A stretch of DNA of 33,188 nucleotides from a virus, in IMG/VR virus record IMGVR_UViG_3300010354_000021, positions 1 to 33,188 of that record; one strand, 5' to 3'. The notes beneath the pieces were generated by a model that did not search any database, was not told where the DNA came from, and was given only the letters and a program-made list of their open reading frames with translations. The position numbers and the translations under genes were made by a program. Every line of letters starts with the position of its first letter. Within the stretch, counting starts at the first letter, position 1. Positions 5,056-33,188 of this stretch are shown here, piece after piece.

Positions 5056-5309
5056 AACTAAACGAATTAACAAAAGAACAAAGACTAACTTATGTAGGGT
5101 TACTTACTGAGTTACAAAAAGACGAATTAATTGGTCAATGGTATGCACCTGACTCTTATTTCAATCCTATTCAAGACCTTAATGATAATTGGGTTATATC
5201 AATAGAAGAAATGGAGCAGTGTGTTAACCCTGACTTTCTTTGGGTTAAAGACCTTGACTTGATTCCTTACGAACAAAAACCGTCACCTTTCCCACCAATT
5301 GAAAATTAA
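5052..5309 (+). CDS. Small protein following the adhesin, possible fibre chaperone
   Basis: An 85-residue acidic protein with a helical first half (ELTKEQRLTYVGLLTELQKDEL) and a Trp/Pro/Asp-rich second half ('FNPIQDLNDNWVISIEEMEQCVNPDFLWV'). The start overlaps the adhesin stop and its own stop overlaps the tape measure start (TAATG). Small genes immediately after adhesins often encode fibre-assembly chaperones or are carried with the adhesin as part of the swap cassette; that role is inference here. Its base composition follows the cassette rather than the tape measure gene. Confidence 0.5.
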   Translation: MKLNELTKEQRLTYVGLLTELQKDELIGQWYAPDSYFNPIQDLNDNWVISIEEMEQCVNPDFLWVKDLDLIPYEQKPSPFPPIEN

Positions 5310-7954
5310 TGGCAGAGAAATCAGTTGTATTCTCACTCAAGGTTAATACTGGCAATAGTGTTAATGACATTCAGGCTATGGATGCAGCTGTCAATGACTT
5401 GAATCAAGATCTCAAGGCAACACAAAAAACAGCAGCAGATAGCACTGGCATTGATACCTTTGACCAAAAACTCCAAGAACTAAATGCAAGAGTTGAGGCT
5501 GGTGGACTCACCATGAGAGAGCTGACCAGGACCATGAAGGACTATCAAAACTTGGCAGCTCAGGCTGGAGCTGAGAGTCCTATTGGAGCACAAGCAATTA
5601 GAAATGCTGCAAATCTTAAGGATGAGATTGGTGATCTTAAGGCTCAGACAACAGCATTGTCATCTGACTTTGTTGGCTTAGATACAACTTTGCAAGGAGT
5701 TGAGACTGGAGCAGCTGCATTCCAAGGTATTCAATCAGCAGTCGCATTGACTGGAGTTGAGTCTGAGGCTTTGACTGAGACAATGGTCAAGTTGCAAGCT
5801 GTCCAGGGATTAGTCAACTCAGTTAGTATCATTTCAAATAACTTGAATAAAGAGTCAATTCTTGGCTTGCAATTGAGGACAGCGTGGGAAAAATTAAAAA
5901 ATTCTGCATTTGTTCAAGGCACAGTTGCAACACAAGCTAATACAACAGCAACAGTTGCTCAGACTGCTGCGACCAATTCGGCAACAGCAGCAACGGCAAC
6001 AGCAACAACTGGGATGAAGTTATTTAGATTAGCCTTGGCGGCTACTGGTATTGGATTAATTGTTGTTGCTCTTGGCTTTTTAATTGCCAACTTTGACAAG
6101 GTAACTGGAGCAGTGATGAAGGCTTATAACTGGTTTAATAAACTTGGACCAGCAGTTAAGCTTGCAATTGCTGTGATGTTTCCTTTGATTGGTGTAATTT
6201 ATGGAGTCATAAAATCTCTTGAATATTTTGGAGTGGTTGATGATGAGCAAACTGCAAAGATGAAAAAAAATGCAAGAGCCAAGACTGATGCCACTGAGAA
6301 AGAGATGAATAAAAAGATTGCAGCTGAAAAGAAAAAAGCTCAGGCTGTTGATGAGAATCTTTCCTTTGAAATCAGAAAGGCACAAGCTGCTGGAAAGAAC
6401 ACTGAAGAGATGGAGGAGAAAAAACTTAAGGCAGCTCTTAAGTCAGGTCGTGCCATTCTTGAAATGCAAAAGCAAAAGATTGCAGCATATGAGGCAGAGA
6501 TTAAACTACTCAAGGCAACAGGAGATGCTGATAGTGATAGAGCTAAGAAACTTGAGAAGTCACTTAAGGATGCAAAGAAAAATAGTTTTGAACAATACAA
6601 GGTTAATAAAAAGAATGCTCAGGATCTTGAAGTATTAAGAATTGAGCAAGACAAAAAAGATGATGAGGCAGCCAAGGCAAGATCTGATAAAGCCAAGGCA
6701 AGAGCTGAAAAGAGAAGAGAGGATGCTAAGAAAGAGGCTGAGAGATTAGCAGAGATTGAACGCAAAGCAAATGAGGATAGAATCAAGGCTGAGGATGAAC
6801 AATTCCAATTGAGTCTTGACTTAATGGCTGAGAATCAAGAGAAAGAACTTTTGCTCTCAACCATGAAATATGATAAGATGAGAGATCAAGCTCATGGCAA
6901 TGCTAATCTTTTATATGAAATTACTGTCCAGGAAAATGCTGAAAGAATTGCTATTGTCAATAAATACAATAAAATTGAACTTGATAAAATTGCAGAGCAA
7001 GAGGCTAAGAAAAAATCATTGAGAGATCAGGTGCAAAGATTCTTGAATACTGATAGAGAGAATGAATTGCTTGATTTAGAGGAGGCATTGAAAAAACAAG
7101 AGGCATTGAACTTGGCAGCCTTTAAAGCTGAGGCTATTGATGAGGAGGAATTCTATGATGCTAACTTAAAAGCTCAGGAACAATTCAGAATAAAGAAGGC
7201 AGAACTTGATAAAAAATATGATGATCAAGCAAAGGCCAATGCAATCAAAGCAAGAGAGGAGCAACTTAAGGGAGTAACAGCTGCAATTGAGGGAGCTCAA
7301 AAGGGATTGGATGAACTTAAGAAAATTAATGCTCTTATCAATGAAATAGATCAAGCCAGATTAAACAGAATAGCTGAGAATAGAGATGCAGATCTTGCTA
7401 ATCTTGACAAGAATCTTCAGGCACAACTTAGTCAAGAGGGATTGACTGCTGATCAAAAGAAACAGATTGAGGAAAACTTTGCACAACAAAAGTATCAAGT
7501 ACAACTCAAGGCTTATAATGAGGAGGAGAAAATAAAGAAAGCACAATTTGCAAGAGATAAGGCTTTGAGATTGGCACAAGTTGGTATTGATACAGCATCA
7601 GCAATTGTCAAAGGTATTGCACAATTTGGTCCACCACCATCTCCAGCTGGTATTGCTGCCATTGCATCAGCCTCATTAATAGGAATCACTCAGGCATTGG
7701 CTATCATGAATCAAAAGTATCAAGCTGGCTCAGCCCCTACTCCACCACAACTATCATCTGGAGGAGGAGGATCATTGAGTGGAGCTGGATCAAGTTCATT
7801 CACAGCCAATACACAAGCTCAGACAACTGACTTGAATCAGATTGGTCAAGGTCAACAAGGTCAGACAATGACATCACAAGTGGTTGTCTTGGAATCTGAT
7901 ATCACTGGCACTCAAAACAAGGTGCAAGTACAAGAGGCTAAGTCAAGCTTTTAA
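5309..7954 (+). CDS. Tape measure protein
   Basis: An 881-residue tail tape measure protein, which sets tail length and is expelled during DNA ejection. Residues 1-230 are helical with Ala/Thr/Gln-rich segments. Two hydrophobic segments follow at about 236-262 ('LALAATGIGLIVVALGFLIANF') and 283-305 ('AVKLAIAVMFPLIGVIYGVIKSL'). A very long charged coiled coil (about 310-735) is rich in Lys, Glu and Ala, and a second hydrophobic stretch lies at about 755-800 ('GIAAIASASLIGITQALAIM'). This arrangement is diagnostic of the family. The gene is separated from the chaperone-like frameshift gene by the tail-tip and fibre genes, which is not the usual siphophage order. It converges on, and overlaps by 17 bp, the reverse-strand gene that follows. 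Confidence 0.9.
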   Translation: MAEKSVVFSLKVNTGNSVNDIQAMDAAVNDLNQDLKATQKTAADSTGIDTFDQKLQELNARVEAGGLTMRELTRTMKDYQNLAAQAGAESPIGAQAIRNAANLKDEIGDLKAQTTALSSDFVGLDTTLQGVETGAAAFQGIQSAVALTGVESEALTETMVKLQAVQGLVNSVSIISNNLNKESILGLQLRTAWEKLKNSAFVQGTVATQANTTATVAQTAATNSATAATATATTGMKLFRLALAATGIGLIVVALGFLIANFDKVTGAVMKAYNWFNKLGPAVKLAIAVMFPLIGVIYGVIKSLEYFGVVDDEQTAKMKKNARAKTDATEKEMNKKIAAEKKKAQAVDENLSFEIRKAQAAGKNTEEMEEKKLKAALKSGRAILEMQKQKIAAYEAEIKLLKATGDADSDRAKKLEKSLKDAKKNSFEQYKVNKKNAQDLEVLRIEQDKKDDEAAKARSDKAKARAEKRREDAKKEAERLAEIERKANEDRIKAEDEQFQLSLDLMAENQEKELLLSTMKYDKMRDQAHGNANLLYEITVQENAERIAIVNKYNKIELDKIAEQEAKKKSLRDQVQRFLNTDRENELLDLEEALKKQEALNLAAFKAEAIDEEEFYDANLKAQEQFRIKKAELDKKYDDQAKANAIKAREEQLKGVTAAIEGAQKGLDELKKINALINEIDQARLNRIAENRDADLANLDKNLQAQLSQEGLTADQKKQIEENFAQQKYQVQLKAYNEEEKIKKAQFARDKALRLAQVGIDTASAIVKGIAQFGPPPSPAGIAAIASASLIGITQALAIMNQKYQAGSAPTPPQLSSGGGGSLSGAGSSSFTANTQAQTTDLNQIGQGQQGQTMTSQVVVLESDITGTQNKVQVQEAKSSF

Positions 7955-8585
7955 TCCATTCAACACAAGGCTTATTCCAGAAAGCATCTCCAGTTGAGAA
8001 ACATCCCTGGAGTGCAATGAATTCTTGAGCCTTTGCAATAGATGGTGTTGATACCTTACAATTGAATCCCTCCTTTGATGGAACTTGGTACACATTGCAA
8101 TAGATTGACTTGATAAAATGATTGTCATTTTGCCAGTTGATATTGTCAAAGAGTTCAATTAGTTTTTTGCTATCCATTACACATGGAGTATGAGTCTCAT
8201 AATTGTAGGCAGTAAAACTATTATGTTTAAGGAATTCCAATGTATTTGCTTGAGCCACCTTTGTATGTGGAGGATGGTTGTCATTAACCATGATACTCTT
8301 CATGTTAATGGCTACATGTGGCTGCCATGACTCAGTGATAAAAAAGTCTTTATTCATATAGATAAACTCTCCACCAATTTGCTTAGCAAAAGTCAATATT
8401 CTATTGGTCACATCACATCCTCTAATATTATTGTATTGAGTGCAAGGTATATTGTTGATTCCAGACACAGCCTTTCCAATAGTCCATATTTCAGCAGTAG
8501 GATAAACTTTCAGGACCATTGCAATAGATTGCTTGATTTCAAAGTCAGACTCAGCTCTTGAATGGTAAGGATAAACAAATTTCAT
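7938..8585 (-). CDS. Glycosyltransferase-like protein (Stealth-like motif), only clear reverse-strand gene
   Basis: A 215-residue protein from ATG 8583-8585; an in-frame TTG at 8594 is possible but would overlap the promoter motif. The segment 'AKQIGGEFIYMNKDFFI' (about residues 67-83) resembles the 'FIYFNDDVFFG' core of Stealth-type sugar-phosphate transferases and related GT-A enzymes. The early 'YPYHSRAESDFEIKQSI' resembles their N-terminal pattern. The family's other conserved regions are not evident, so the reaction is uncertain; modification of a surface glycan is a guess. It interrupts the virion operon between tape measure and protease, overlaps the tape measure end by 17 bp, and is divergent from the protease with only 26 bp between starts. 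This is consistent with a separately controlled accessory gene. Confidence 0.6.
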   Translation of the reverse strand: MKFVYPYHSRAESDFEIKQSIAMVLKVYPTAEIWTIGKAVSGINNIPCTQYNNIRGCDVTNRILTFAKQIGGEFIYMNKDFFITESWQPHVAINMKSIMVNDNHPPHTKVAQANTLEFLKHNSFTAYNYETHTPCVMDSKKLIELFDNINWQNDNHFIKSIYCNVYQVPSKEGFNCKVSTPSIAKAQEFIALQGCFSTGDAFWNKPCVEWIKSLT

Positions 8586-8587
8586 TT

Positions 8588-8608
8588 CGAACAAATTTAC
8601 ATATTATT
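8588..8608 (+). promoter_or_regulatory. Repeated upstream motif CGAACAA-N5-CATATTATT (copy 1)
   Basis: One of four copies of a motif with consensus CGAACAA-N5-TATATTAAG, each shortly upstream of a virion gene. Here it fills the 26-bp divergent gap and lies 3 bp before the prohead protease ATG. The second half is the most degenerate of the four. CpG is rare in this genome, which makes the recurring CGAACAA notable. It may be a late promoter or a translation-initiation element. Confidence 0.4.
8592..8599 (-). promoter_or_regulatory. Bacteroidota -7 promoter motif (TAAATTTG) for the reverse gene
   Basis: On the minus strand TAAATTTG matches the Bacteroidota -7 consensus TAnnTTTG and ends six bases before the ATG at 8585. 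A clear -33 TTTG is not seen. If active it would give a very short-leader or leaderless transcript. It overlaps the CGAACAA motif reading in the other direction. Confidence 0.4.
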
Positions 8609-8611
8609 TAT

Positions 8612-9514
8612 ATGCTAAGAGAGTTACCACTATATGATATTGTCATAGATCTTGAAGATCCAGAAACAACAGTATCATTCAACAGCCTTGTGGCTAATCC
8701 AGCACATGAGAAATCATTTGAGACATTCTCCAAAAAGATTGCTTATCAGTTTAATGATGAGGAGCAAGTCATCACTGGAGTTGCTATATCTGCAAACACT
8801 CCCATATTCAGAAGAGATCCTCGTACTGGTGAGGAATATTATGTGAACTTTTCACCAGCAGCAATCAAGGATATTGTCTTTGATTATGCAAGGAGAGACA
8901 ATTTCAATAATGTAAACATTGAGCATGATAGCAAGAGAGTGGTTGATGGAATATACATGATCATGTCATATATCATTGATGAGTCAAAAGGATTCACAGC
9001 TCCAGAAAGATTCAAGCATGAGAATGATGGCTCTTGGATTGTGAGCTACAAAGTAACAAATAAGGATGTCTATGATGCTGCTAAGGCTGGCATGTTCACA
9101 GGATTCTCAATTGAGGGAGTATTCCAATTGCTTGAGACTGGCAAAGGTTGGGAGCATGAATTCACAACCATATATCAAGAGCTTAAAAAGGTCCAGGAAT
9201 ATATTACATTTTACAATGACTATCCAGAGGCTGTGAGCAACAACGCCAAGAAAGGTATTGAACTCAATCAAAAGTATGGGAATAAATGTGCCACAAGAGT
9301 GGGCCGCTTAAGAGCAACAACTTTAGCTAATAGACAAACTGTCTCAGTTGCTGTGATTAAAAGAATGTACTCATATCTATCAAGAGCTGAGGAGTATTAT
9401 GATGAGAGTGATCAATCTGCATGTGGTACAATATCATATTTATTATGGGGTGGACTTGCTGCAAAGAGATGGTCAGAGGCTAAGTTAAAAGAATTAGGGA
9501 TTTTCGAACAATAA
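8612..9514 (+). CDS. Prohead protease, XkdF-like, with C-terminal accessory domain
   Basis: A 300-residue protein; the ATG at 8612 (MLRELPLYDIVID) is chosen because earlier in-frame codons lie across the divergent gene. Residues 20-175 match the XkdF-like phage serine protease pattern: 'TGVAISANTPIFRRDP', 'VNIEHD' with probable catalytic His105, and 'AGMFTGFSIEG' with probable catalytic Ser166. It would cleave scaffold and capsid during maturation. Residues 205-300 ('NAKKGIELNQKYG', 'CGTISYLLWGGLAAKRW') form a separate domain found attached to or near phage head-morphogenesis proteins, of unknown function. It heads the protease-scaffold-capsid block, the standard order for HK97-type heads. 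Confidence 0.75.
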   Translation: MLRELPLYDIVIDLEDPETTVSFNSLVANPAHEKSFETFSKKIAYQFNDEEQVITGVAISANTPIFRRDPRTGEEYYVNFSPAAIKDIVFDYARRDNFNNVNIEHDSKRVVDGIYMIMSYIIDESKGFTAPERFKHENDGSWIVSYKVTNKDVYDAAKAGMFTGFSIEGVFQLLETGKGWEHEFTTIYQELKKVQEYITFYNDYPEAVSNNAKKGIELNQKYGNKCATRVGRLRATTLANRQTVSVAVIKRMYSYLSRAEEYYDESDQSACGTISYLLWGGLAAKRWSEAKLKELGIFEQ

Positions 9515-9525
9515 ATTATAATAAG
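9505..9525 (+). promoter_or_regulatory. Repeated upstream motif CGAACAA-N5-TATAATAAG (copy 2)
   Basis: Copy of the CGAACAA-N5-TATATTAAG motif overlapping the protease stop codon and ending one base before the ATG of the scaffold-like gene. The first part also encodes Glu-Gln of the protease C-terminus, so selection on protein cannot be separated from a regulatory role at this copy alone. Confidence 0.4.
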
Positions 9526-9526
9526 T

Positions 9527-10105
9527 ATGAACAAAGAATTAACTACCATTAAGGAATTGATTGCTGAAATGAAAGCACAATTCTCAAAGTCAGTTGACAA
9601 ATTTGAATCAGCAGTATTGGCTGATGGTGTTACAACAATTGAGTATGATGCTCTTGAGGTTGGAATGCCAGTTTTTGTTGTTGCAGATGGCGAAAGAATA
9701 CCAGCTCCTGAAGGAACTCATGCATTGAGTGGTGATCTTGCAGGTGTATCTATTGTTGTTGATGCTGAAGGTATCATAACAGAGATCATTGATGAGAGAC
9801 AAAATGAAGGAGATGGTGAAGTTGCTGTTGAAGAGACATCATCAGAAGCAATGAGTGCTGAGCAAGTTGAGTCAATAGTAAATGCAAAGCTTGAGGCATT
9901 CTCCAAAGCTGTCGAAGGATTGGCAGAAATGACCAAAGCTATTGCTGAGACAAATACAAACTTGGTTAATGAGTTGAGCTCATTGAAAAGTGATTTCGAA
10001 ACTTTCAAAGCACAGCCATCAGTTGAAACCAAAGAGGCTGAAAAATTCAGCAAGGTTGGCAACCTGACAGCCCGACAACTATTCTTGAAAAATTCTAAAG
10101 TATAA
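9527..10105 (+). CDS. Capsid scaffold-like protein
   Basis: A 192-residue acidic protein between protease and major capsid protein, the usual place of a scaffold. Residues 1-30 form a charged helix. Residues 33-92 form a small beta domain ('TTIEYDALEVGMPVFVVADGERIPAPEG', 'GVSIVVDAEGIITEI'). Residues 110-170 are a predicted coiled coil (ESIVNAKLEAFSKAVEGLAEM and following). The C-terminus is basic. It probably organises capsid assembly and is removed by the upstream protease; both roles are inferred from position and architecture. Confidence 0.65.
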   Translation: MNKELTTIKELIAEMKAQFSKSVDKFESAVLADGVTTIEYDALEVGMPVFVVADGERIPAPEGTHALSGDLAGVSIVVDAEGIITEIIDERQNEGDGEVAVEETSSEAMSAEQVESIVNAKLEAFSKAVEGLAEMTKAIAETNTNLVNELSSLKSDFETFKAQPSVETKEAEKFSKVGNLTARQLFLKNSKV

Positions 10106-16101: not shown

Positions 16102-16652
16102 TGGCAACAACAAACATTAATGTCACAACATTAGAGACAGCAAATTATGGATTATTTGCTCAGACAGCTAATAGCACACCAATAACCAACACAACAGTTG
16201 AGACATCACTAATCAATGGAGGAGTTGGATCATTAACTGTTCCGGCAAATGGTTTTGCTGTTGGTGATTCATTTAGAGCTGTGATGGCTGGAATCTTGAA
16301 TGTAGCTAATAATCAAAGCATCAGAATCAGAGTCAAGGCTGGCTCAGTTGTATTGCTTGATAGTGGAGTTCAATCAATTAGTAATATCACAAATGATGTA
16401 TTCTCTTTGAATATAGATTTCACAATCAGAGCCATTGGAGGAGCTGGGACTGCATCAATTGTATCACTTGGCACATTCCACTATGTTAAGACATCCAATG
16501 CCTCAGCTCAAGGTTTTGCTTTCAACTCAGTAAACTCAACAACATTTGACACAACCATCAGCAATCAATTAGCCATTACAGTTGAATGGGGTGCTGCCAA
16601 TGCTGGTAACTCAATTTATTCTGATATTTTTATCTTGAATAAAACATATTAG
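16101..16652 (+). CDS. Virion appendage / beta-sandwich structural protein
   Basis: A 183-residue Gly/Ser/Thr/Asn-rich protein without charged helices. It has a pattern I associate with widespread phage appendage proteins: 'VETSLINGGVGSLTVPANGFAVGDSFRAVMAG', 'SIRIRVKAGSVVLLDSG', 'FSLNIDFTIRAIGGAG' and 'TTFDTTISNQLAITVEWG', ending in 'IYSDIFILNKTY'. It is likely a jelly-roll-like fibre, head fibre or decoration protein exposed on the virion. It is the last structural gene before the lysis cassette, to which it is joined by a 10-bp gap. Confidence 0.6.
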   Translation: MATTNINVTTLETANYGLFAQTANSTPITNTTVETSLINGGVGSLTVPANGFAVGDSFRAVMAGILNVANNQSIRIRVKAGSVVLLDSGVQSISNITNDVFSLNIDFTIRAIGGAGTASIVSLGTFHYVKTSNASAQGFAFNSVNSTTFDTTISNQLAITVEWGAANAGNSIYSDIFILNKTY

Positions 16653-16662
16653 CATATTAAAT

Positions 16663-16905
16663 ATGGAGAGTATATTCAAACTTGATTTCAAAACATTTCT
16701 AAAAAGTCCATTTACTTATATCTTTTTTATATTACTTACAATCCTTATTTTTATCGGAAGATATGTGATCAATTCAAAGGATCAAGAAATCAAAGTACAA
16801 CAGCAAAAGATTGATGATTGTGATGATGAGAGAAAGGCTGATAAAAAATTAATGCAAAATATATTATTTCAAAAAGAACTAAATAAAAGACTAAATGGAG
16901 AATAA
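16663..16905 (+). CDS. Single-span membrane protein, holin or spanin-like candidate
   Basis: An 80-residue protein with one transmembrane segment at about residues 15-35 ('PFTYIFFILLTILIFIGRYVI') followed by a charged coiled-coil tail (about 38-78). This N-in/C-out layout and its position two genes before the endolysin suggest a lysis function such as an inner-membrane spanin or a holin-related protein, but no diagnostic motif exists for either. It overlaps the next gene by 11 bp. Confidence 0.55.
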   Translation: MESIFKLDFKTFLKSPFTYIFFILLTILIFIGRYVINSKDQEIKVQQQKIDDCDDERKADKKLMQNILFQKELNKRLNGE

Positions 16906-17140
16906 AATCTTGATAGCTATAACTATTGTAAGTAGTTGTATTGCAATATTCAGTCCAGTTGCTGAGCATAAGTATCAACCACATAAAAAAGATCAAACAA
17001 CAATCAAGGCAGAGAAGTATCTGCATGATCTTGAAGAGGAAAATAATAAAAAGGTTGAGGACCTTAAGCATGATGTTGACAGCTTATTGACAATAAAGAA
17101 AAAAATTAAGTATATTTACATCCAAAGGGATTCAATATGA
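16895..17140 (+). CDS. Membrane-anchored coiled-coil protein of lysis cassette
   Basis: An 81-residue protein with a hydrophobic N-terminus (residues 4-22, 'KILIAITIVSSCIAIFSP') that may be a signal anchor, then a highly charged coiled coil. There is no clear lipobox, although 'VSSCIA' holds a Cys at residue 15. It overlaps both neighbours (11 bp and an ATGA with the endolysin). Together with the preceding protein it could form a two-component spanin-like or holin/antiholin system. Function is not established. Confidence 0.5.
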   Translation: MENKILIAITIVSSCIAIFSPVAEHKYQPHKKDQTTIKAEKYLHDLEEENNKKVEDLKHDVDSLLTIKKKIKYIYIQRDSI

Positions 17141-19417: not shown

Positions 19418-19658
19418 TCTTAGAGATCATCTCTTTGCAGCATTAGAGAGATTGGACAACGATGAGCTCACAGCTGAAGAGCTCCAAAAAGAACTGGATA
19501 AGGCTGAGGCAGTTGCACAAATTGGCAATGTGATCATCAGCAGTGCAAAGGTAGAGGTTGACTTCATGAAAGCAACTGGAATGATATCAACTAATAGTGA
19601 TTTATTTAAAGGAGTACAACATGAGTCCAGACAATTATACAGTGGTAGAGAAAGTTAA
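19395..19658 (+). CDS. Conserved small helical phage protein
   Basis: An 87-residue protein starting MARNKINDLRDHLFAALERL, then 'ELTAEELQKELDKAEAVAQIGNVIISSAKVEVDFMKATG'. The pattern is that of a small helical protein often found near HNH or replication genes in phages, with no assigned function. It lies in the early coupled chain, overlapping the HNH gene and the DnaA-like gene. Confidence 0.6.
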   Translation: MARNKINDLRDHLFAALERLDNDELTAEELQKELDKAEAVAQIGNVIISSAKVEVDFMKATGMISTNSDLFKGVQHESRQLYSGRES

Positions 19659-20088
19659 GCAATTAATCATCCAGGATGAGCTTAATTCAAAGTCAAGGGA
19701 AAGAGATAAAATATATAAAAGATCTTATCTCTATGCAATACTCAGAGAAGAGGGATGGAATCTATCCAAGATTGGAAGGTTATTCAATAGAGACCATGCA
19801 ACTGTGATTAATGGATTGAGATGTTACGACAACTATTATGGTAATGATAAGATTTATCATAGATATATAAAACATTATGAATCAATATTCAGACCATCTA
19901 TTGAAGTGCCAAAAGATTCTATTTATGATGATGTGATGAACTGCCATAATACTACTCAATTGAGGTTGATTAAGGATAAGATAATGGGTGGATTGTATGA
20001 CAACACGACAAGTCTCTTATTGTACGTTCCTATAATTTTTTCTTTTTTTGTGTGGGGGGTAGAAAAAATGCTCGTCATCTTGTCATGA
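19621..20088 (+). CDS. DnaA domain-IV-like DNA-binding protein
   Basis: A 155-residue protein; ATG 19621 is preferred over 19597 because of the AAAGGAG sequence upstream. Residues 36-70 ('LYAILREEGWNLSKIGRLFNRDHATVINGL') match the helix-turn-helix of bacterial DnaA domain IV, including the 'RDHATV' signature that contacts DnaA boxes. There is no AAA+ ATPase domain. It is encoded immediately upstream of a repeat-rich non-coding region and the primase-helicase, so it may recognise the phage origin or act as a regulator. The last 25 residues ('SLLLYVPIIFSFFVWGVEKM' and on) are unexpectedly hydrophobic, read from a T/G-rich stretch, and may be an accidental extension. Confidence 0.65.
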   Translation: MSPDNYTVVEKVKQLIIQDELNSKSRERDKIYKRSYLYAILREEGWNLSKIGRLFNRDHATVINGLRCYDNYYGNDKIYHRYIKHYESIFRPSIEVPKDSIYDDVMNCHNTTQLRLIKDKIMGGLYDNTTSLLLYVPIIFSFFVWGVEKMLVILS

Positions 20089-25333: not shown

Positions 25334-25488
25334 TGAAAGATATTGTAATTTGGATATTAACGCTATTCGTGCTGGTTGCTGGGATAGCGTTATTCTATTA
25401 TGGCCTGTATCGTTTCTTTGGCACTATTGGATTATTTGTATTTATATCACTGGCTGTGTTTTGGTTGATGTTAATAAAGAGATCATGA
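25333..25488 (+). CDS. Two-span small membrane protein
   Basis: A 51-residue protein starting MKDIVIWILTLFVLVAGIAL with a second hydrophobic segment ('IGLFVFISLAVFWLMLI') and a Lys-Arg end. It overlaps the DUF3127-like stop (TAATG) and the next start (ATGA), so it is embedded in the coupled operon. It may be an early membrane protein affecting host physiology or superinfection. Function unknown. Confidence 0.55.
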   Translation: MKDIVIWILTLFVLVAGIALFYYGLYRFFGTIGLFVFISLAVFWLMLIKRS

Positions 25489-25703
25489 AAATAATCACAA
25501 TCTATCTCAAGAATCCAGATGACAACATCAAGGAATGGATGATCAGAGAAACAAAGTCACGAATCAGCAACAGATATAAACAAGTGCATATTGCTGAGGA
25601 TATCGGAGTGAACACTACTCAACTCTGGAGATTCATGAATGAGTCAAAGGTATCTGAGGACTTTTACATCAAATGGTTTAAATGGTATTCTAAAATATCA
25701 TAA
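25485..25703 (+). CDS. Small helix-turn-helix protein
   Basis: A 72-residue protein from ATG 25485, taken as the start because of the ATGA overlap. A predicted helix-turn-helix lies at about residues 33-62 ('YKQVHIAEDIGVNTTQLWRFMNESKVSEDFYIKW'), like small phage regulators. It may bind DNA near early or middle promoters. Target unknown. Confidence 0.6.
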   Translation: MKIITIYLKNPDDNIKEWMIRETKSRISNRYKQVHIAEDIGVNTTQLWRFMNESKVSEDFYIKWFKWYSKIS

Positions 25704-25712
25704 CTTAGCAAT

Positions 25713-26225
25713 GTGGAATTCTGGAAAAAAGAAGCCTATATCATTGCTGGTAAAATCACCGGAGGGAATCCAATATCTTCAGACTTGGTCAGCCATGTCT
25801 ATCTATTGGTGCATGAACTTAGCATCAGACAAGAGGACCTTCCAAGAGTCTTTGCCAGATATGCTTACAACCAGTACAACTGGAGGGATTCCACATTCAA
25901 TAAGTTATTCAAGACACATGACCAGTTACCAGATATGGACTCCAAAGAATCAGATGATGAGAGCTACGAAGTTACAAAGGCTCAAGAATTATTGGATGAC
26001 TATCTTCATCAGAGTCCTGAAGATGATCAAAAGATGTTCACCAAAGAGATCACAAAGATGCATCTGATGGGTATGACATACAGAGAGATTCGCACATTAA
26101 CTGGAATTAGTCTTGACACTATTCACTTGGCAATTAAACAATTTAAATATGATTTATCTGATTATAATAACTCTTCCAATAGGATTTGCGAGGGCTCTCC
26201 AGAGCTTCAATCTTCCGAATATTAA
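25713..26225 (+). CDS. Sigma-factor-like regulator
   Basis: A 170-residue protein from a GTG at 25713 (no in-frame ATG keeps the N-terminus). The N-terminal half ('FWKKEAYIIAGKITGGNPISSDLVSHVYLLVHEL') resembles region 2 of sigma-like proteins. The C-terminal 'MHLMGMTYREIRTLTGISLDTIHLAIKQFKYDL' (about 114-146) resembles the region 4 helix-turn-helix. Such reduced sigma-like proteins occur in Bacteroidota phages and are candidates for directing host polymerase to phage promoters. The acidic insert between halves ('DMDSKESDDESYEV') is atypical. It overlaps the next gene by 77 bp. Confidence 0.6.
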   Translation: MEFWKKEAYIIAGKITGGNPISSDLVSHVYLLVHELSIRQEDLPRVFARYAYNQYNWRDSTFNKLFKTHDQLPDMDSKESDDESYEVTKAQELLDDYLHQSPEDDQKMFTKEITKMHLMGMTYREIRTLTGISLDTIHLAIKQFKYDLSDYNNSSNRICEGSPELQSSEY

Positions 26226-27279: not shown

Positions 27280-28016
27280 TGCAAGCACATATATCAGAAT
27301 CACTTGCTGGCCTTGACAAAGGACTCATTGAAAAATTCAATTTAACACCATACCAGGTTGCAACTTGGGACACTGTATTCATGGGGATGTACAGAGAAGA
27401 GGACTTGACTACTCTTGCAACACATCTCGGAGCCAGCACAATTGTCTGGTTTGGCTCAGATGCCAAAGACCTTCCAGAGGATTGGATTAAGTTCATGAAG
27501 GACTCAGTCAACATTGCAGTCAGTCATCAAGTCCTTGAGACTCTTGCATCCAAAGGCATTGAGTCAATATGGTGTCCTATCAATGCTGTCATTCCTCATC
27601 ACTGGCCATTGCTGCCTAATGGTGACAAGATATTCTGGTATTCTGGAAATGCTCCAGAGTATTATGGTCAAGACCTTATCAACGAAATAAAAGAACGTAT
27701 CAACATTCCTATCATCAGAGCTGGTCATGATACATTCAGCAAAGAGGAATTGGTTGATGTTTACTCTCAATGCTTTTTGAATCTGAGATTGACTCCTCAT
27801 GATGGCTGTCCGAATACCAACATTGAAATGGGACTAATGGGAAGGCGGTCAATTTACAATGGTGACCTTCCAGCATCTATTCCTTGGGAATCAGTGGATG
27901 ATATTTGTCAATCAATTGCAAGAGAATATGCAACAAGACATGTTGATAATGTGTATATTAGTAAAATTTATCATAATTTTGTTAACTATGAAAGAATGTC
28001 CACGCTGTTTGTTTGA
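27279..28016 (+). CDS. Glycosyltransferase, GT-B-like (group 1)
   Basis: A 245-residue protein. The C-terminal half carries a GT4-like donor-binding pattern: 'FWYSGNAPEYYGQDLINEI', 'PIIRAGHDTFSKEELVDVYSQCFLNLRLTPHDGCPNTNIEMGLMGRRSIYNG', in which the Glu of 'NIEMGLMG' corresponds to the conserved E-x7-E region. It is shorter than typical GT-B enzymes (350 or more), so it is a compact version. Its start overlaps the preceding stop (TAATG) and its end overlaps the amidotransferase start by 29 bp. Confidence 0.7.
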   Translation: MQAHISESLAGLDKGLIEKFNLTPYQVATWDTVFMGMYREEDLTTLATHLGASTIVWFGSDAKDLPEDWIKFMKDSVNIAVSHQVLETLASKGIESIWCPINAVIPHHWPLLPNGDKIFWYSGNAPEYYGQDLINEIKERINIPIIRAGHDTFSKEELVDVYSQCFLNLRLTPHDGCPNTNIEMGLMGRRSIYNGDLPASIPWESVDDICQSIAREYATRHVDNVYISKIYHNFVNYERMSTLFV

Positions 28017-29055
28017 TGAGACCATAGCTGAGATTGGTCCAGAACAATGTGAATACTGTGATCTCCATGATCAATTAGAATTGCAATCTAATCCTCATGA
28101 ATTAAAACATCTGATAAAACAAATCAGAGTCAAAGGTCATGATAAAAAATACGATTGTATCATGGGAATCTCAGGAGGTATTGACTCATCAACTCTCTTA
28201 TATACTGCTGTCAAATATTGGAATCTCAGACCATTGGTGATTCATTTCGACAATCACTGGAATGCTCCAGAGGCAGTTCATAACATGACTCAGTTAGTCA
28301 AGTTACTTGGTGTGGACTCAATCACATATACTGTCAATAAAGAGGAATATGATAGACTGAATGATGCATTCCTTTGGGCTGGTATTCCTGATGCTGATAT
28401 TCCAAACGATATTGCAATGACAAAGCTCATGTATGATACTGCATTCAAGTATGGTATCAAGTACATTCTAAATGGTCATGATTTCAGAACTGAAGGCTCA
28501 ACTCCAAAAGGTTGGACTTATATGGATGCAAAATACATTCAATCAGTTTACAACAAATATTCTGGACTCAGACTCCAGAACTATCCCCTATTCACTTTCA
28601 AGGATCAACTATTCTATGCTGCAATGGGTATCAAGAATGTCAGACCATTTCATTATGGATTTGATAGAGATTCAATGGAGGCTGAAATGAAGAGACTAAT
28701 CAACTGGCAAGATTATGGTGGCAAGCATTGCGAGAATGTATATACTGAGTTTGTTGGATCATTCCTCCTTCCAGAGAAGTTTGGAATTGATAAAAGGATT
28801 GTTTATCTTTCAGCTCAAGTAAGAAGTGGTAAACTAACCAAAGACCAGGCAAGAGAACAATTCAATATCAAGTCTGAATTCGATATCACAAAACTTGGCT
28901 CAAGTGCTGAGAGAATGCTCAGACTGGTCAACATAAGAAAGAGAGACCGATCAGAGTTTGAGAAATATGACTTTAAAAAATATAGAATCATCCTATGGTT
29001 ATTAACCAAGATGAAAGTACTACCATATACATTCTATGTTAAGTATTGTAAATAA
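27988..29055 (+). CDS. N-acetyl sugar amidotransferase (WbpG/PseA-like)
   Basis: A 355-residue protein from ATG 27988 (MKECPRCLFDETI). Cys4, Cys7, Cys21 and Cys24 form a zinc-ribbon-like start. The ATP-pyrophosphatase PP-loop 'MGISGGIDSSTLLY' (SGGIDSS 62-68) and family-typical 'LNGHDFRTEGSTPKGWTYMDAKYI' and 'DYGGKHCENVYTEFVGSFLLPEKFGIDKR' follow. The family converts an acetamido sugar precursor to its amidino form during surface polysaccharide or pseudaminic/legionaminic-type sugar synthesis, usually together with a separate glutaminase, which is absent here. Length is near the family norm. Finding it between phage replication and packaging genes is unusual. A host-derived accessory gene is inferred. 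Confidence 0.8.
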   Translation: MKECPRCLFDETIAEIGPEQCEYCDLHDQLELQSNPHELKHLIKQIRVKGHDKKYDCIMGISGGIDSSTLLYTAVKYWNLRPLVIHFDNHWNAPEAVHNMTQLVKLLGVDSITYTVNKEEYDRLNDAFLWAGIPDADIPNDIAMTKLMYDTAFKYGIKYILNGHDFRTEGSTPKGWTYMDAKYIQSVYNKYSGLRLQNYPLFTFKDQLFYAAMGIKNVRPFHYGFDRDSMEAEMKRLINWQDYGGKHCENVYTEFVGSFLLPEKFGIDKRIVYLSAQVRSGKLTKDQAREQFNIKSEFDITKLGSSAERMLRLVNIRKRDRSEFEKYDFKKYRIILWLLTKMKVLPYTFYVKYCK

Positions 29056-29056
29056 T

Positions 29057-29077
29057 CGAACAAAGTAATATATTAAG
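29057..29077 (+). promoter_or_regulatory. Repeated upstream motif CGAACAA-N5-TATATTAAG (copy 3)
   Basis: Non-coding copy of the motif in the 39-bp gap between the amidotransferase stop and the small terminase start, ending 17 bases before that ATG. Because the gap is non-coding, this copy cannot be explained by protein conservation. It marks the beginning of the packaging and virion region. Confidence 0.5.
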
Positions 29078-29094
29078 AGGATAACTATATCTAT

Positions 29095-29490
29095 ATGGCA
29101 TATAATCAAGAGATAATAGATCAACTTGAGGATCTTGGCTTTGAATATATCCAAGAATGCCTTAATAATAAAAAAGAGATGATCTCTAATAAAGGAGAGA
29201 TTGTACTCGTTTCTGATAGACATATTCCAACTATTGATTACTTTCTTATGATATGGATCCCTATTAAACTTGGAATGAAGTTAATTGATAGGAGGACATG
29301 GTATAGATGGCTTAGAGAAGAGTCTGACAAATGTCACACTATAAAAAACATAGATGGTGAATTCATAGCTCTTGGAAAGAACATTGTGGCCAATGAAGGC
29401 AAGGGTATATTCTATGCTAAGAATAAATTTGGCATGCATGATCGCCAGCAACTCGAGACTAAGAATGTAGAGAAGTTTGACTTTGAATGA
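29095..29490 (+). CDS. terS: Terminase small subunit candidate
   Basis: A 131-residue protein immediately upstream of the large terminase (ATGA overlap), the standard place for the small subunit. 'PTIDYFLMIWIPIKLGMKLIDRRTWYRWLREES' is consistent with the helix-turn-helix DNA-recognition region, and the end 'IFYAKNKFGMHDRQQLETKNVEKFDF' resembles the oligomerisation tail of small terminases in this phage group. It would recognise the pac or cos site and start packaging. Assignment rests on position and pattern. Confidence 0.65.
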   Translation: MAYNQEIIDQLEDLGFEYIQECLNNKKEMISNKGEIVLVSDRHIPTIDYFLMIWIPIKLGMKLIDRRTWYRWLREESDKCHTIKNIDGEFIALGKNIVANEGKGIFYAKNKFGMHDRQQLETKNVEKFDFE

Positions 29491-30689
29491 GTACAGTCAA
29501 AGGTTACAAGCCACATGACAAACAAAGAGAGATTCATGATGCCATCAACCATGGCCATGAAAAATATTATGCTCTGAACATTGGTAGGCAGTTTGGAAAG
29601 ACCTTGCTTGGAATCAACCAACTACTTTGGTGGGCCATCAATGATAAAGGCTGTCGCATAGCATGGGTAACTCCAGTTTATAAGCAAGGAAAGAAAGTCT
29701 TTGCAGATCTTGAGAGGGCAGTTGCCAAGAGTGGATTGTTTACTTTCAACCGATCAGATCTGATGGTCAATGGCTTTGGCTCAACCATTGAATTCTTTTC
29801 AGGTGAGAGACCAGACAATATCCGAGGCAATACTTTTGATTATATGGTAGTGGATGAGATGGCCTTCACAAGACCAGAGTTGTGGGATGAAGTCTTGAGT
29901 GCAACTGTCCTGGTCAAAGGAAAGAAAGTCATCTTCATCTCAACACCAAAAGGCAAGAATCATTTCCATAGGCTTTGTATGCAACCGAACTATGATGATC
30001 GCTATGCTTACTTTCATTATTCATCTTATGACAATCCCATGATTGATCCAAGAGAGTTGGATGAGAGAAAGAGGTCATTGCCTGATCATGTATTCAGGCA
30101 AGAGTATTTGGCAGAGTTCATTGACAATGCCAGTGGTATATTCAAGAATGTTCATCAATGCATAAACACAGGCACCAAGACTGCAAAGATGTATGCTGGC
30201 CTTGACATAGGTAGGGCTGATGACTACACTGTGCTAACTATCCTCAATCAAGATGGACAGATGGTAACTGCTCATAGATGGAGGCATGATGAGTGGAGCA
30301 AGATTATTGAGAAGGTTGCCACTATCATCAAGCAATACAATGCCATTACATTGGTGGAGGTCAACAATCAAGGTGATGTATTCTTTGAGATGCTCCAGTC
30401 AAGATGCAAGAATCTCATCCATCCATTTGTGACAACATCTAAGACCAAGCCAATTATCATTGAGGATCTTGCTGTGGCATTTGAGCAATCAACAATCTCA
30501 ATTGTCAATGAACAATGGTTGATAGATGAGTTGGATAATTTTAGTTATATTTACAATCCAAACACAAGGAATGTAAGTTACTCTGCACCAGCTGGACTCC
30601 ATGATGATGGTGTGATATCCACAGCATTGGCTTGGCATAGCAGAAAGGAATTTGCAAACCGAGGTAGATATATGGCCTTAAGAGTATGA
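29487..30689 (+). CDS. terL: Terminase large subunit
   Basis: A 400-residue packaging motor. ATPase: Walker A 'GRQFGKT' (33-39), Walker B 'MVVDEMA' (120-126), coupling motif 'ISTPKGKN' (151-158). Nuclease: 'AGLDIGRADDYTVL' with Asp240 and nearby acids, and 'HDDGVISTALAW' with Asp373/Asp374, the RNase H-like metal site. Both domains are complete and the length is normal for a compact large terminase. It cuts concatemers and drives DNA into the prohead through the portal. The portal gene is about 15 kb away round the circle rather than adjacent, which is unusual. Confidence 0.9.
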   Translation: MSTVKGYKPHDKQREIHDAINHGHEKYYALNIGRQFGKTLLGINQLLWWAINDKGCRIAWVTPVYKQGKKVFADLERAVAKSGLFTFNRSDLMVNGFGSTIEFFSGERPDNIRGNTFDYMVVDEMAFTRPELWDEVLSATVLVKGKKVIFISTPKGKNHFHRLCMQPNYDDRYAYFHYSSYDNPMIDPRELDERKRSLPDHVFRQEYLAEFIDNASGIFKNVHQCINTGTKTAKMYAGLDIGRADDYTVLTILNQDGQMVTAHRWRHDEWSKIIEKVATIIKQYNAITLVEVNNQGDVFFEMLQSRCKNLIHPFVTTSKTKPIIIEDLAVAFEQSTISIVNEQWLIDELDNFSYIYNPNTRNVSYSAPAGLHDDGVISTALAWHSRKEFANRGRYMALRV

Positions 30690-31396
30690 AACAACTGGAT
30701 ATAAAATTACCAAACTCATTATCATCATGCACACCAGAGCAAATGACCAGGTGGCTTATGATGGCTGAGGCAATGAAGGAGCAAAAGGATGACATCACTC
30801 AGTTGTTGATATTCCAATGTCAGTTGCTCAGTCTATTCAGTGGAGAGTCAATCAATAAGATCAAGAGAGCAGATATTGAATCCATCCAAGTTGCTGCCAA
30901 TCATTTGCTGCAATTGTTGGTAAGTTATAAATACCAGGAGCCAAAGTCTGACATTGAAATTAATGGCAAGGCATATTATTTTGAAAAGAACTTTGCTCAT
31001 GTTTCAACTGGTCAGATTATTGACTTGAAATTGATTGAGGATATCAGCCAAGATCCATGTCAAGCATTAGCAATCATGTATGTTGAGAAAGGCATGGAGT
31101 ATTGCCAAGAGGATGAGAGAGGTAGAGTCTTGAATCCTAATGAGCATAGGTACAAGGAATTCAAAGATCACTTTCCTGGAGATGAGTTTTTGAACTTTTT
31201 CAGTTTTTTTTTAGACTTATCGGAGAAGCGGAGGCTCGCTATATTAGGCATACAGATGGCGAGGCAGAGGATGGAAATGATGATGATGGAGCAGGACTTA
31301 AAGATTCAGAGTGGTTTAGTTGGACCACTATCATCCATAGACTATCCAAAGAAATGGGAGTCAGTGTGGAAAAGATTACACAACAGCCTTATGTGA
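30686..31396 (+). CDS. Tail assembly chaperone-like protein, short (zero-frame) form
   Basis: A 236-residue product read without frameshifting. The N-terminal 176 residues are well-behaved protein ('LSSCTPEQMTRWLMMAEAMKEQ', 'IEINGKAYYFEKNFAHVSTGQIIDL'). After residue 176 the frame is Met/Arg-rich ('MARQRMEMMMMEQ'), less convincing than the alternative -1 frame. Position between terminase and tail genes, together with the slippery site, suggests the gpG role of a G/GT pair that coats the tape measure before tail assembly. It overlaps terL by 4 bp. Confidence 0.55.
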   Translation: MKQLDIKLPNSLSSCTPEQMTRWLMMAEAMKEQKDDITQLLIFQCQLLSLFSGESINKIKRADIESIQVAANHLLQLLVSYKYQEPKSDIEINGKAYYFEKNFAHVSTGQIIDLKLIEDISQDPCQALAIMYVEKGMEYCQEDERGRVLNPNEHRYKEFKDHFPGDEFLNFFSFFLDLSEKRRLAILGIQMARQRMEMMMMEQDLKIQSGLVGPLSSIDYPKKWESVWKRLHNSLM

Positions 31397-31476
31397 CCAC
31401 ATTGTTCTGGATGAACTATTTTAGGATAGTTGATGAGAACGAACAAAAACGTATATTAAGTAATGGCAGACTTTGA
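30686..31476 (+). CDS. Tail assembly chaperone-like protein, -1 frameshift form
   Basis: Slipping back one base on UUUUUUA (31207-31213) joins residue 176 to an 87-residue extension in the -1 frame. It contains 'SEWFSWTTIIHRLSKEMGVS', 'YVTTLFWMNYFRIVDE' and ends 'KRILSNGRL' at TGA 31474-31476, 263 residues in all. The extension is strongly protein-like, has no start codon of its own near the junction, and overlaps the next gene by 14 bp, whereas the zero-frame stop leaves a 66-bp gap. Programmed -1 shifting that produces gpG and gpG-T products is known for siphophage tail chaperones. A simple indel or sequencing error is the alternative. Confidence 0.65.
31207..31213 (+). other. Slippery heptamer for -1 frameshift (T TTT TTA)
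   Basis: TTTTTTA in phase with the upstream frame (T, TTT, TTA) inside a nine-T run (31204-31212), the same heptamer used by HIV-1 gag-pol. Thirteen bases downstream is a small stem, AGCG (31227-31230) with CGCT (31237-31240), in an unusually CpG-rich patch for this genome, which might act as stimulator. Confidence 0.65.
31440..31460 (+). promoter_or_regulatory. Repeated upstream motif CGAACAA-N5-TATATTAAG (copy 4)
   Basis: Perfect copy of the motif, ending two bases before the ATG at 31463. It lies inside the end of the -1 frameshift extension (coding Glu-Gln and following). The second half is identical to copy 3 at 29069-29077. Confidence 0.45.
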
Positions 31477-31987
31477 TTTTCTTGAGGACTTTGGTGTAAC
31501 AGCTCAAGATGCAGAGCAACCAAAAAATGCTTATGATAGATTTATCATTGAGCTATCCAATAAACTTGCTGAGGAGTTTAGAGATTACACAAAGAAAGTT
31601 GCTCAGAATACTGGAGCATTGGCAGCATCAATCATTCCAGTACCAACTGGACAATTGTCATTCAGATTAGAGGCTGAGGATTACTATCCATTTGTTGATG
31701 AGGGAGTCAATGCTGTTGGTACAAATAACTATGGCAGTCAATTCTCATTCAACTATCCTGGAGTCAGTCAGAGAATGGCAACAGCAATCAGCCAGTGGAA
31801 GGGATTAGATATGAGCCATGCATATGCAGTGGCATCCAATATCAAGCAACGAGGATTGCAACCAAAGAGAATCACTGATAATGTCATCAATGATCAAGTC
31901 CTGGAGAGGATAGGTAGAGATTTGGCAGAGCTCACTGGTTTAATGTTTGAAATTAATTTTACAAGAAATGGCAGTAACAATATATGA
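31463..31987 (+). CDS. Tail or head-completion protein, HK97 gp10-like
   Basis: A 174-residue protein. A helical N-terminus ('NAYDRFIIELSNKLAEEFRDYTKKVAQNTGALAASI') is followed by a beta region ('FRLEAEDYYPFVDEGVNAVG') containing the 'YYPFVDEG' element typical of gp10-like tail completion proteins, then a helical C-terminus ('AISQWKGLDMSHAYAVASNIKQRG'). It likely stabilises the tail end or joins it to the head. It overlaps the frameshift extension before it by 14 bp and the tail-tip gene after it by 20 bp. Confidence 0.55.
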   Translation: MADFDFLEDFGVTAQDAEQPKNAYDRFIIELSNKLAEEFRDYTKKVAQNTGALAASIIPVPTGQLSFRLEAEDYYPFVDEGVNAVGTNNYGSQFSFNYPGVSQRMATAISQWKGLDMSHAYAVASNIKQRGLQPKRITDNVINDQVLERIGRDLAELTGLMFEINFTRNGSNNI

Positions 31988-33149
31988 TGAGCCACAACTG
32001 ATTGCACCAGCTGGCAATCCATTAGTGTTCACATTCAGCAGCAATCAGACTGCACAACCCAATTTCAGTTTTGTTGTTGAGGTTTATATTGATAGCACAT
32101 TGAGATTGACTCAAGAGGTGTTTAGACAATTCAATACGCTTGGAAGAATAGATGTATCTGAGGCAGTTCAAAGTGCAATAAGAAATCCAGAGATCACAAC
32201 TGATCTTGAGTTTGATGCCACCAATTCAATGGTCACTTATGCTATCATTGTCTATGAAAAGTATGGATCAACTCCGACAATTCAAGCCAGTGATACAAGC
32301 ACAACATTAAAAGCATTCAATGCAGCTCTTGAATATCCACAGTGGAGAGTGTTTGATTATGAGATATATGATCCTAATTTAACACAGGATGCAGTATTCT
32401 TAACTAACTTTCCAACAACATCCAGAGCTTTGTGTGGAATGGATGAGAATTTTTATCTTGGATATTTTGAGCAGAGTGGGGGTGCTATATGTGATTTCAA
32501 TGTGTATTTATTAGATATCCAAGGTAATACAATTGCAAGTGACTCATATACTTTAACATCAACAGAATTCAATATCTTGAATGTTGGTCCACAGGTCATC
32601 ATTGCAAATACATCTATAAATCAGAATGATTTTGATGATTGTTTTAAATATGAAGTATCTGTGTCTGTGCAAGGAGTTTCATTTGTTGGACCCTTCACAA
32701 TATACATGGACCTTGATTGCAAGAGATATACAACTCATAGATTGCATTGGTTGAATAAACTTGGATCATGGGATTCATTTACCTTTGCATTGGTCTCAAC
32801 CGAATCAGCAACAGTACAGGCATTTGACTATCAAAGAGATCCTGGAGTGTGGGATAATACAAGTTACACATATCCTCTTTACTCTGGACAAAAGATTCAT
32901 TTTGCCAAGACAAAGACTGAGCAATTGATTTTGAATTCAGATTGGATATCAGAGGCAGTTCAGAATTGGTTGGTTGAATCTTTATTTGATTCTCCTTTGG
33001 TTTATCTTGAGCAAAATAATGGAACTGAATTTGAGCCAGTTAAAGTGACCAATTCAAACTATCAACTCAAGACCAGGAGAAGAGATGGCTTGATGCAAGA
33101 GCAAGTTACAATTGAAAGAACATACACATATAGATCACAACTTAACTAA
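31968..33149 (+). CDS. Tail-tip / distal tail protein
   Basis: A 393-residue protein from ATG 31968 (MAVTIYDEPQLIAPAGNPLVF), preferred over the upstream in-frame ATG at 31947 because the 'MAVTIYxEPQ..PAxNPLVF' N-terminus is characteristic of a tail-protein family in Bacteroidota phages. It is beta-rich throughout, with 'FKYEVSVSVQGVSFVGPFTIYMDLDCKRYTTHRLHWLNKLGSWDSFTF' as the most conserved-looking part, and lacks transmembrane segments. It probably forms the distal tail or baseplate with the 801-residue protein that follows across the circular junction (TAATG overlap). The gene's last 84 bases are repeated at the left end of the window. Confidence 0.65.
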   Translation: MAVTIYDEPQLIAPAGNPLVFTFSSNQTAQPNFSFVVEVYIDSTLRLTQEVFRQFNTLGRIDVSEAVQSAIRNPEITTDLEFDATNSMVTYAIIVYEKYGSTPTIQASDTSTTLKAFNAALEYPQWRVFDYEIYDPNLTQDAVFLTNFPTTSRALCGMDENFYLGYFEQSGGAICDFNVYLLDIQGNTIASDSYTLTSTEFNILNVGPQVIIANTSINQNDFDDCFKYEVSVSVQGVSFVGPFTIYMDLDCKRYTTHRLHWLNKLGSWDSFTFALVSTESATVQAFDYQRDPGVWDNTSYTYPLYSGQKIHFAKTKTEQLILNSDWISEAVQNWLVESLFDSPLVYLEQNNGTEFEPVKVTNSNYQLKTRRRDGLMQEQVTIERTYTYRSQLN

Positions 33150-33188
33150 TGGCTGGAGAACTATTCATTAATGGGAGGCTGGTTGATA
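33066..33188. repeat. Terminal direct repeat, right copy
   Basis: Identical to 1-123. It closes the circular genome and should be counted once. The reading frames of both genes spanning it continue without change across the join. Confidence 0.95.
33149..33188 (+). CDS. 5' start of large tail-tip protein (partial, duplicate of 84-123)
   Basis: The first 13 codons of the 801-residue tail protein annotated at 84-2489, duplicated by the terminal redundancy and cut by the window end. It is not a separate gene. Confidence 0.95.
   Translation, partial: MAGELFINGRLVD

Follow-up and report, generated by a model that had tools for sequence, protein, structure and literature searches.

A conserved two-box motif before packaging and virion genes of an uncultured phage: a probable late-promoter family with a phage-encoded ECF-like sigma factor as its likely reader

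The IMG/VR virus record IMGVR_UViG_3300010354_000021 is a stretch of DNA of 33,188 nucleotides, called the window here and analysed over its whole length. The first 123 bases of this 33.2-kb record are repeated at its end (1–123 = 33066–33188, a direct terminal repeat), indicating that the record is a circular assembly and probably a complete phage genome. From its ERF, primase, terminase, protease and capsid genes, together with TAnnTTTG boxes and a distant similarity to the Nonlabens phage P12024S in the protease and in gene order, we infer a host among the Bacteroidota. IMG/VR is rich in contigs closely related to the window. CpG is depleted about five-fold (observed/expected 0.18), which bears out by calculation the scarcity noticed when the sequence was read on its own, and close relatives are likewise depleted. 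GATC sites are scarce in the related contigs of high CpG content (10, 23 and 16 in L183, G022 and G023, respectively) and number 135–257 in most other complete genomes; these differences between contigs perhaps reflect avoidance of different host restriction systems. Among the other genes, the protein encoded at 19633–20088 contains a DnaA domain IV-like segment (RDHATVINGL, recognised by eye) and possibly has a role in replication initiation, and a PP-loop (PAPS reductase/Asn synthase-like) protein is encoded at 27990–29055, directly 5' of the terminase unit. Five relatives (G021, G025, G026, G027 and G028) carry, between the PP-loop gene and the terminase genes, a stretch matching residues 195–295 of the protease ORF, which is possibly a stand-alone gene. 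The features on which the analysis turns are the following:

7938–8585, minus strand: divergent gene, 215 aa from ATG 8585, its start abutting motif copy 1
8588–8608, plus strand: motif copy 1, CGAACAAATTTACATATTATT, 3 nt 5' of the protease ATG (8612)
8592–8599, minus strand: host-type TAnnTTTG -7 box, TAAATTTG, for the divergent gene, overlapping copy 1
8612–9514, plus strand: prohead protease-like gene (Peptidase_S78_2), downstream of copy 1
9505–9525, plus strand: motif copy 2, CGAACAATAAATTATAATAAG, 1 nt 5' of the scaffold-like ATG (9527)
9527–10105, plus strand: scaffold-like gene, assigned by position, downstream of copy 2
16642–16659, plus strand: degenerate fifth copy, AAACAT-ATTAG-CATATTA, of the same geometry, 3 nt before ATG 16663
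16663–16905, plus strand: small membrane protein of 80 aa, one TM, holin-like, downstream of the degenerate copy
25713–26225, plus strand: sigma-like protein of 170 aa with an ECF-like sigma2 + sigma4 layout, the proposed reader of the motif
29057–29077, plus strand: motif copy 3, CGAACAAAGTAATATATTAAG, non-coding, 17 nt 5' of the small terminase-like ATG (29095)
29095–29490, plus strand: small terminase-like gene (terS), assigned by its position before terL, downstream of copy 3
29487–30689, plus strand: large terminase, second gene of the putative late unit starting at copy 3
30686–31476, plus strand: frameshift gene, with a probable -1 frameshift at the 31204 T9A run and an extension that carries copy 4
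31440–31460, plus strand: motif copy 4, CGAACAAAAACGTATATTAAG, 2 nt 5' of the gp10-like ATG (31463)
31463–31987, plus strand: gp10-like gene, named as in the sequence-only reading, downstream of copy 4

A pattern search of the window recovers the four motif sites at the positions and with the letters first reported for them, and the gaps between motif and ATG (3, 1, 17 and 2 nt for the copies at 8588, 9505, 29057 and 31440) agree with the 1–17 bases then given for their distance to virion gene starts. The core, GAACAA-N5-YATAWTA (box 1, a 5-bp gap and box 2), has four perfect matches, at 8589, 9506, 29058 and 31441, all on the plus strand, and no further match at up to one mismatch on either strand of the window; random Markov sequences contain it 0.47 times on average and twice at most (n = 200). 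The full 21-mer at up to three mismatches is found four times against 0.52 expected, a count equalled in one of 100 shuffles, so the shuffled-sequence control leaves the motif commoner than chance; CGAACAA occurs five times where 1.17 copies are expected. With a weight matrix built from the relatives' sites, the window being left out, the copies at 8588, 9505 and 29057 score 21–28 and that at 31440 scores 9.8, the random maximum being 12.5. The bare CGAACAA at 5270, which had been listed as a possible further copy ahead of the tape measure gene, is best discounted as a chance occurrence, since it lacks the second box and is not kept before that gene in relatives.

The view that two copies are non-coding holds for those at 8588, which occupies the 26-bp gap separating the divergent genes, and 29057; the copy at 9505 overlaps the protease stop codon (FEQ*), and the copy at 31440 belongs to coding sequence, namely the -1 frame extension of ORF 30686, probably a tail-assembly-chaperone-like gene by position and layout. 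The T9A slippery run and the -1 extension (31204–31476) are conserved in dozens of relatives and adjoin the gp10-like gene, for which no Pfam or PHROG match was found. Where the extension is single-coding, its synonymous entropy amounts to about 0.8 bits per codon; over the motif codons it falls to near zero (Mann-Whitney p 0.0009), a drop to which the nearness of the gp10 start codon may contribute. Close relatives lack the leading C at this copy, distant lineages carry GAACAAGATTACATATTA at the gp10 place, and full motif copies are present at the gp10 gene in the L183 clade and in distant lineages. These full copies and the suppressed synonymous variation speak against a purely coding nature of the 31440 copy; given this collapse over the motif and its recurrence in distant lineages, the copy is coding and most likely regulatory as well.

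Conservation in relatives, on which the original proposal was to stand or fall, extends to dozens of uncultured Bacteroidota-type viruses. At protease-anchored loci, CGAACA lies upstream of the protease in 75 of 75 relatives and upstream of the scaffold gene in 80 of 80. For terS it is found within 60 nt of the ATG in 46 of 61 relatives and at 68–70 nt, behind an extra leader, in 11 more; of the four that are left, most have AAAACAA-N5-TATAATA. At this site some relatives have 5' flanks of unrelated sequence and yet the same motif. The boxes before terS, protease and scaffold hardly vary among about 80 relatives per gene and are either non-coding or overlap a stop codon. Exactly three strong weight-matrix sites, always at terS, protease and scaffold, are present in each of nine complete close relatives, and no other site scores above about 10. 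Across 17 complete or nearly complete genomes the core at up to one mismatch gives 59 matches at the four orthologous genes and about 19 elsewhere, so that enrichment upstream of late genes appears in both kinds of scan, in the window and in the 17 relatives. Lineages whose sigma-like protein is 45–54% identical have the motif at the same genes, with TAGAAC or TGGAAC in place of the usual lead into box 1 and TACATAWTA as box 2; in such distant lineages the letters are lineage-specific and common to the sites of one genome. Among 27 sites drawn from eight lineages, all 27 have AACA and 26 have GAAC, with a constant inter-box gap, and the motif is kept across lineages whose late proteins are 45–70% identical. 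No description of this motif was found in the literature searched.

At least six of the approximately 19 off-target matches precede other membrane-protein genes, and the remainder look like mostly chance matches in coding DNA. Copies ending 21–22 nt before small membrane-protein ATGs are found in G004, G005, G021, G022, G023, G027 and G029; they were first counted as off-target, and the proteins in question are holin-like in size and sequence. The small membrane-protein gene of the window, at 16663, lies two genes ahead of an endolysin-like gene at 17137 and follows the degenerate fifth copy; other lineages have a better match to the motif at the corresponding gene. Judging from these positions, lysis genes are probably part of the motif-bearing set, which agrees with a late regulon.

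The divergent gene at 7938–8585, for which no Pfam match was found, has its own host-type box overlapping the protease site on the minus strand, and this TAnnTTTG is kept in the relatives' sequences. Further TAnnTTTG boxes precede 11739, 18142, 20291 and 23930, and hairpins resembling terminators are found after the capsid gene (11093), the gene that comes after it (11694) and the lysis region (17958). The positions of sites, boxes and hairpins together suggest that motif sites mark the beginnings of late units and host-type promoters those of the others. The motif had been said to differ from the host promoter, and it does: late sites have YATAWTA, and TAnnTTTG is the element found upstream of early genes and of the divergent gene. 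The motif is absent before the major capsid, portal and tail tape measure genes, most virion genes being without the element, and no other conserved promoter element was seen upstream of the motif sites.

The inter-box spacing is fixed, and the motif stands at varying distances from the start codon: counted from the G of box 1, these lie between 21 and 70 nt, 12 of the 59 sites having exactly 21 and none less. The sigma-A boxes of Flavobacterium psychrophilum are located at -12 to -5 (PMC9723704), and a box 2 placed likewise predicts +1 at position 21; the 21-nt floor is what is expected if the ATG must be inside the transcript. Given this start, many sites would give mRNAs that are leaderless or have leaders of 1–4 nt, a type that makes up a minority (5.5%) in F. 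psychrophilum (PMC9723704).

The sigma-like gene is present in 18 of 18 complete or nearly complete relatives checked and lies 3 kb before terS. Its product matches the PHROG RNA polymerase sigma factor family at E 0.002, and relatives reach 4.5e-6. Nothing in Pfam is above cut-offs for the window protein, one relative's protein matches Sigma70_r4_2 at E 0.004, and tblastn in phage records gave no match and a comparison with PDB sequences no sigma. The predicted structure consists of eight helices with a flexible middle (pLDDT 68, pTM 0.44). With the whole-protein model, sigma factors, for the most part of the ECF type, make up nearly all of the first 28 Foldseek matches (best match E 0.013, prob 0.99); the sigma2 part alone is modelled at pLDDT 92 and reaches an E of only about 6, being too short for a significant match. 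Small size and a composition of sigma2 and sigma4 only are also characteristic of ECF sigma factors such as E. coli sigmaE. Residue 135 is Asp in CGAAC lineages and Gln, Arg or Ser in others, a suggestive covariation with the base before GAAC that is confounded by shared ancestry. Directly upstream of the sigma-like gene, a small ORF (25335–25703) with an HTH-like C-terminal segment is kept in distant lineages and is a candidate second regulator.

ECF promoters have a -35 core of GAAC, which box 1 (GAACA) resembles, and such a GAAC-like upstream box is present in the window family (26 of its 27 sites). ECF promoters combine it with a spacer of about 16 bp and a CGT -10 element, whereas the window family has 5 bp and YATAWTA, its boxes being approximately one helical turn closer, and the sigma factor here is phage-encoded and would serve late genes. 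A 16-bp spacer downstream of box 1 was rejected because it would place the -10 box and the start site inside genes, and no conserved element is found at that distance. Several phages have their own late sigma, among them T4 (gp55) and SPO1 (gp28), by which the host polymerase is re-targeted to a few late-gene sites, as proposed here. T4 late promoters consist of a single -10-like TATAAATA box, unlike the window motif with its two boxes, fixed 5-bp gap and ECF-like sigma. Bacteroidota have atypical promoters and no Shine-Dalgarno signals, and their primary-sigma promoters carry TTG at -33 and TAnnTTTG at -7; box 2 has the same position relative to the predicted start, without the TTTG half and without the -33 TTG. 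The sigma54 signature (GG at -24, GC at -12) was looked for in the aligned sites and no GG/GC pair was found. The middle and late promoters of Thermus phage P23-45 belong to the extended -10 class, read by host sigma-A with sigma4 displaced by gp39 (PMC7403470); they lack a standard -35 element, as here, and show no similarity of motif.

An independent parallel is found in the Nonlabens phages P12024S and P12024L, which share the gene order around the sigma gene and have a motif before late genes. The syntenic sigma protein of P12024S (Inhavirus), gp33, is above the Pfam Sigma70_r2 cut-off, and its alignment with the window sigma family is weak, the relationship being only remote. Seven late-gene sites of the form AAAACA ... 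CGTTA[AC]T ... ATG are present in P12024S (146, 2998, 5379, 21248, 23929, 25168 and 26769; record L185), with 19–20 bp from the AAC of box 1 to CGTTA and 11–12 nt from CGTTA to the ATG; no report of them was found in the literature searched. By letters and spacing this is an ordinary ECF-like arrangement, with both the longer spacer and the CGT element, and by prediction also near-leaderless; a CGT -10 box is likewise present in the flavobacterial SM6 motif (PMC9723704). Compared with these sites, the window motif has different letters and a spacing 10 bp shorter.

The reading that we consider probable is that the motif is a phage late-promoter family, read by host polymerase with the phage ECF-like sigma and giving near-leaderless mRNAs. 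Host core RNA polymerase carrying the 25713 protein would recognise GAACAA and YATAWTA, 5 bp apart, and begin transcription some 21 nt downstream of the G of box 1, at the ATG or no more than a few nt away from it, so that the resulting mRNAs would be leaderless or have a very short leader. Such sites would switch on the packaging (small and large terminase), gp10-like/tail, protease and scaffold/capsid genes and, more weakly, the holin-like gene of the window, and host TAnnTTTG promoters would serve early genes and the divergent minus-strand gene. The sequence-only reading had already offered a late promoter with a phage sigma as one option: its putative promoter role is well supported by the conservation, gene specificity, fixed spacing and 21-nt floor described here, while the 25713 protein is the likely reader, an assignment we infer from its sigma2 + sigma4 layout and the P12024S parallel. 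The other option then given, a translation-initiation element in which ribosome binding to Bacteroidota mRNAs is adjusted through their A-rich upstream region, which has no SD, agrees with the closeness of the motif to start codons and with the reliance of Flavobacterium johnsoniae on A at -3/-6 instead of Shine-Dalgarno (PMC6847099). We now regard it as highly improbable, as box 1 stands at a varying 21 to about 70 nt from the ATG while the spacing to box 2 is fixed, and most virion genes (major capsid, portal and tail tape measure among them) do without it. A repeated packaging (pac/cos) or replication site would account for the copy just 5' of the terminase genes, and is left with next to no probability by equally conserved copies of the same orientation before the protease, scaffold, gp10-like and holin-like genes. 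That the motif recurs by chance in a genome rich in AT, with coding constraint adding to the count, could be argued from the few copies, one of them coding and one overlapping a stop codon; the Markov and shuffle controls and the conservation across lineages make this practically negligible.

A different division of labour, in which the host primary sigma uses box 2 as a degenerate -7 element and a phage DNA-binding activator occupies box 1 (at about -21), is an unlikely but coherent explanation, of a kind known from T4, where MotA/AsiA re-target sigma70. The activator could be the product of the HTH ORF upstream of the sigma-like gene, whose conservation in distant lineages speaks for this explanation, or the sigma-like protein acting as a mere activator. 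Box 1 is too near box 2 for an ordinary sigma4 contact, and the place of box 2 is that of the flavobacterial sigma-A box (PMC9723704). Against this stand the absence of the TTTG half of TAnnTTTG from YATAWTA, the presence of sigma2-like as well as sigma4-like parts in the sigma-like protein, and the case of P12024S, where a sigma gene in syntenic position goes together with ECF-like sites. An operator, by which a phage repressor or regulator silences late genes early in infection, the promoter being elsewhere or box 2 alone, would agree with a fixed two-box site at few loci and with the several DNA-binding proteins that the phage encodes; it is very unlikely, as there is no palindrome or direct repeat of the dimeric-operator type, the strict orientation and the 21-nt floor are promoter-like, and no further conserved promoter element was seen upstream of the sites.

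Within the late-promoter reading, an inter-box spacing about 10 bp below the P12024S/ECF layout means that the usual sigma4 contact with box 1 is not expected. A compact class of ECF-type promoter, with GAACA about one helical turn nearer the -10 element and dedicated to leaderless or near-leaderless late mRNAs of abundant freshwater Bacteroidota phages, is put forward tentatively, as a possibility somewhat short of an even chance; the sigma4 of a short phage sigma would follow a new path, or this sigma would read a continuous element from -22 to -5.

How late genes are switched on in Bacteroidota phages seems little described, no account having been found in the literature searched. The present analysis defines a late regulon of four to five sites per genome with one candidate sigma, conserved in many uncultured phages, and P12024S offers an isolated analogue in which the idea of such a regulon can be tested. 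If the compact spacing is true, it bears on how closely sigma2 and sigma4 can approach each other on DNA.
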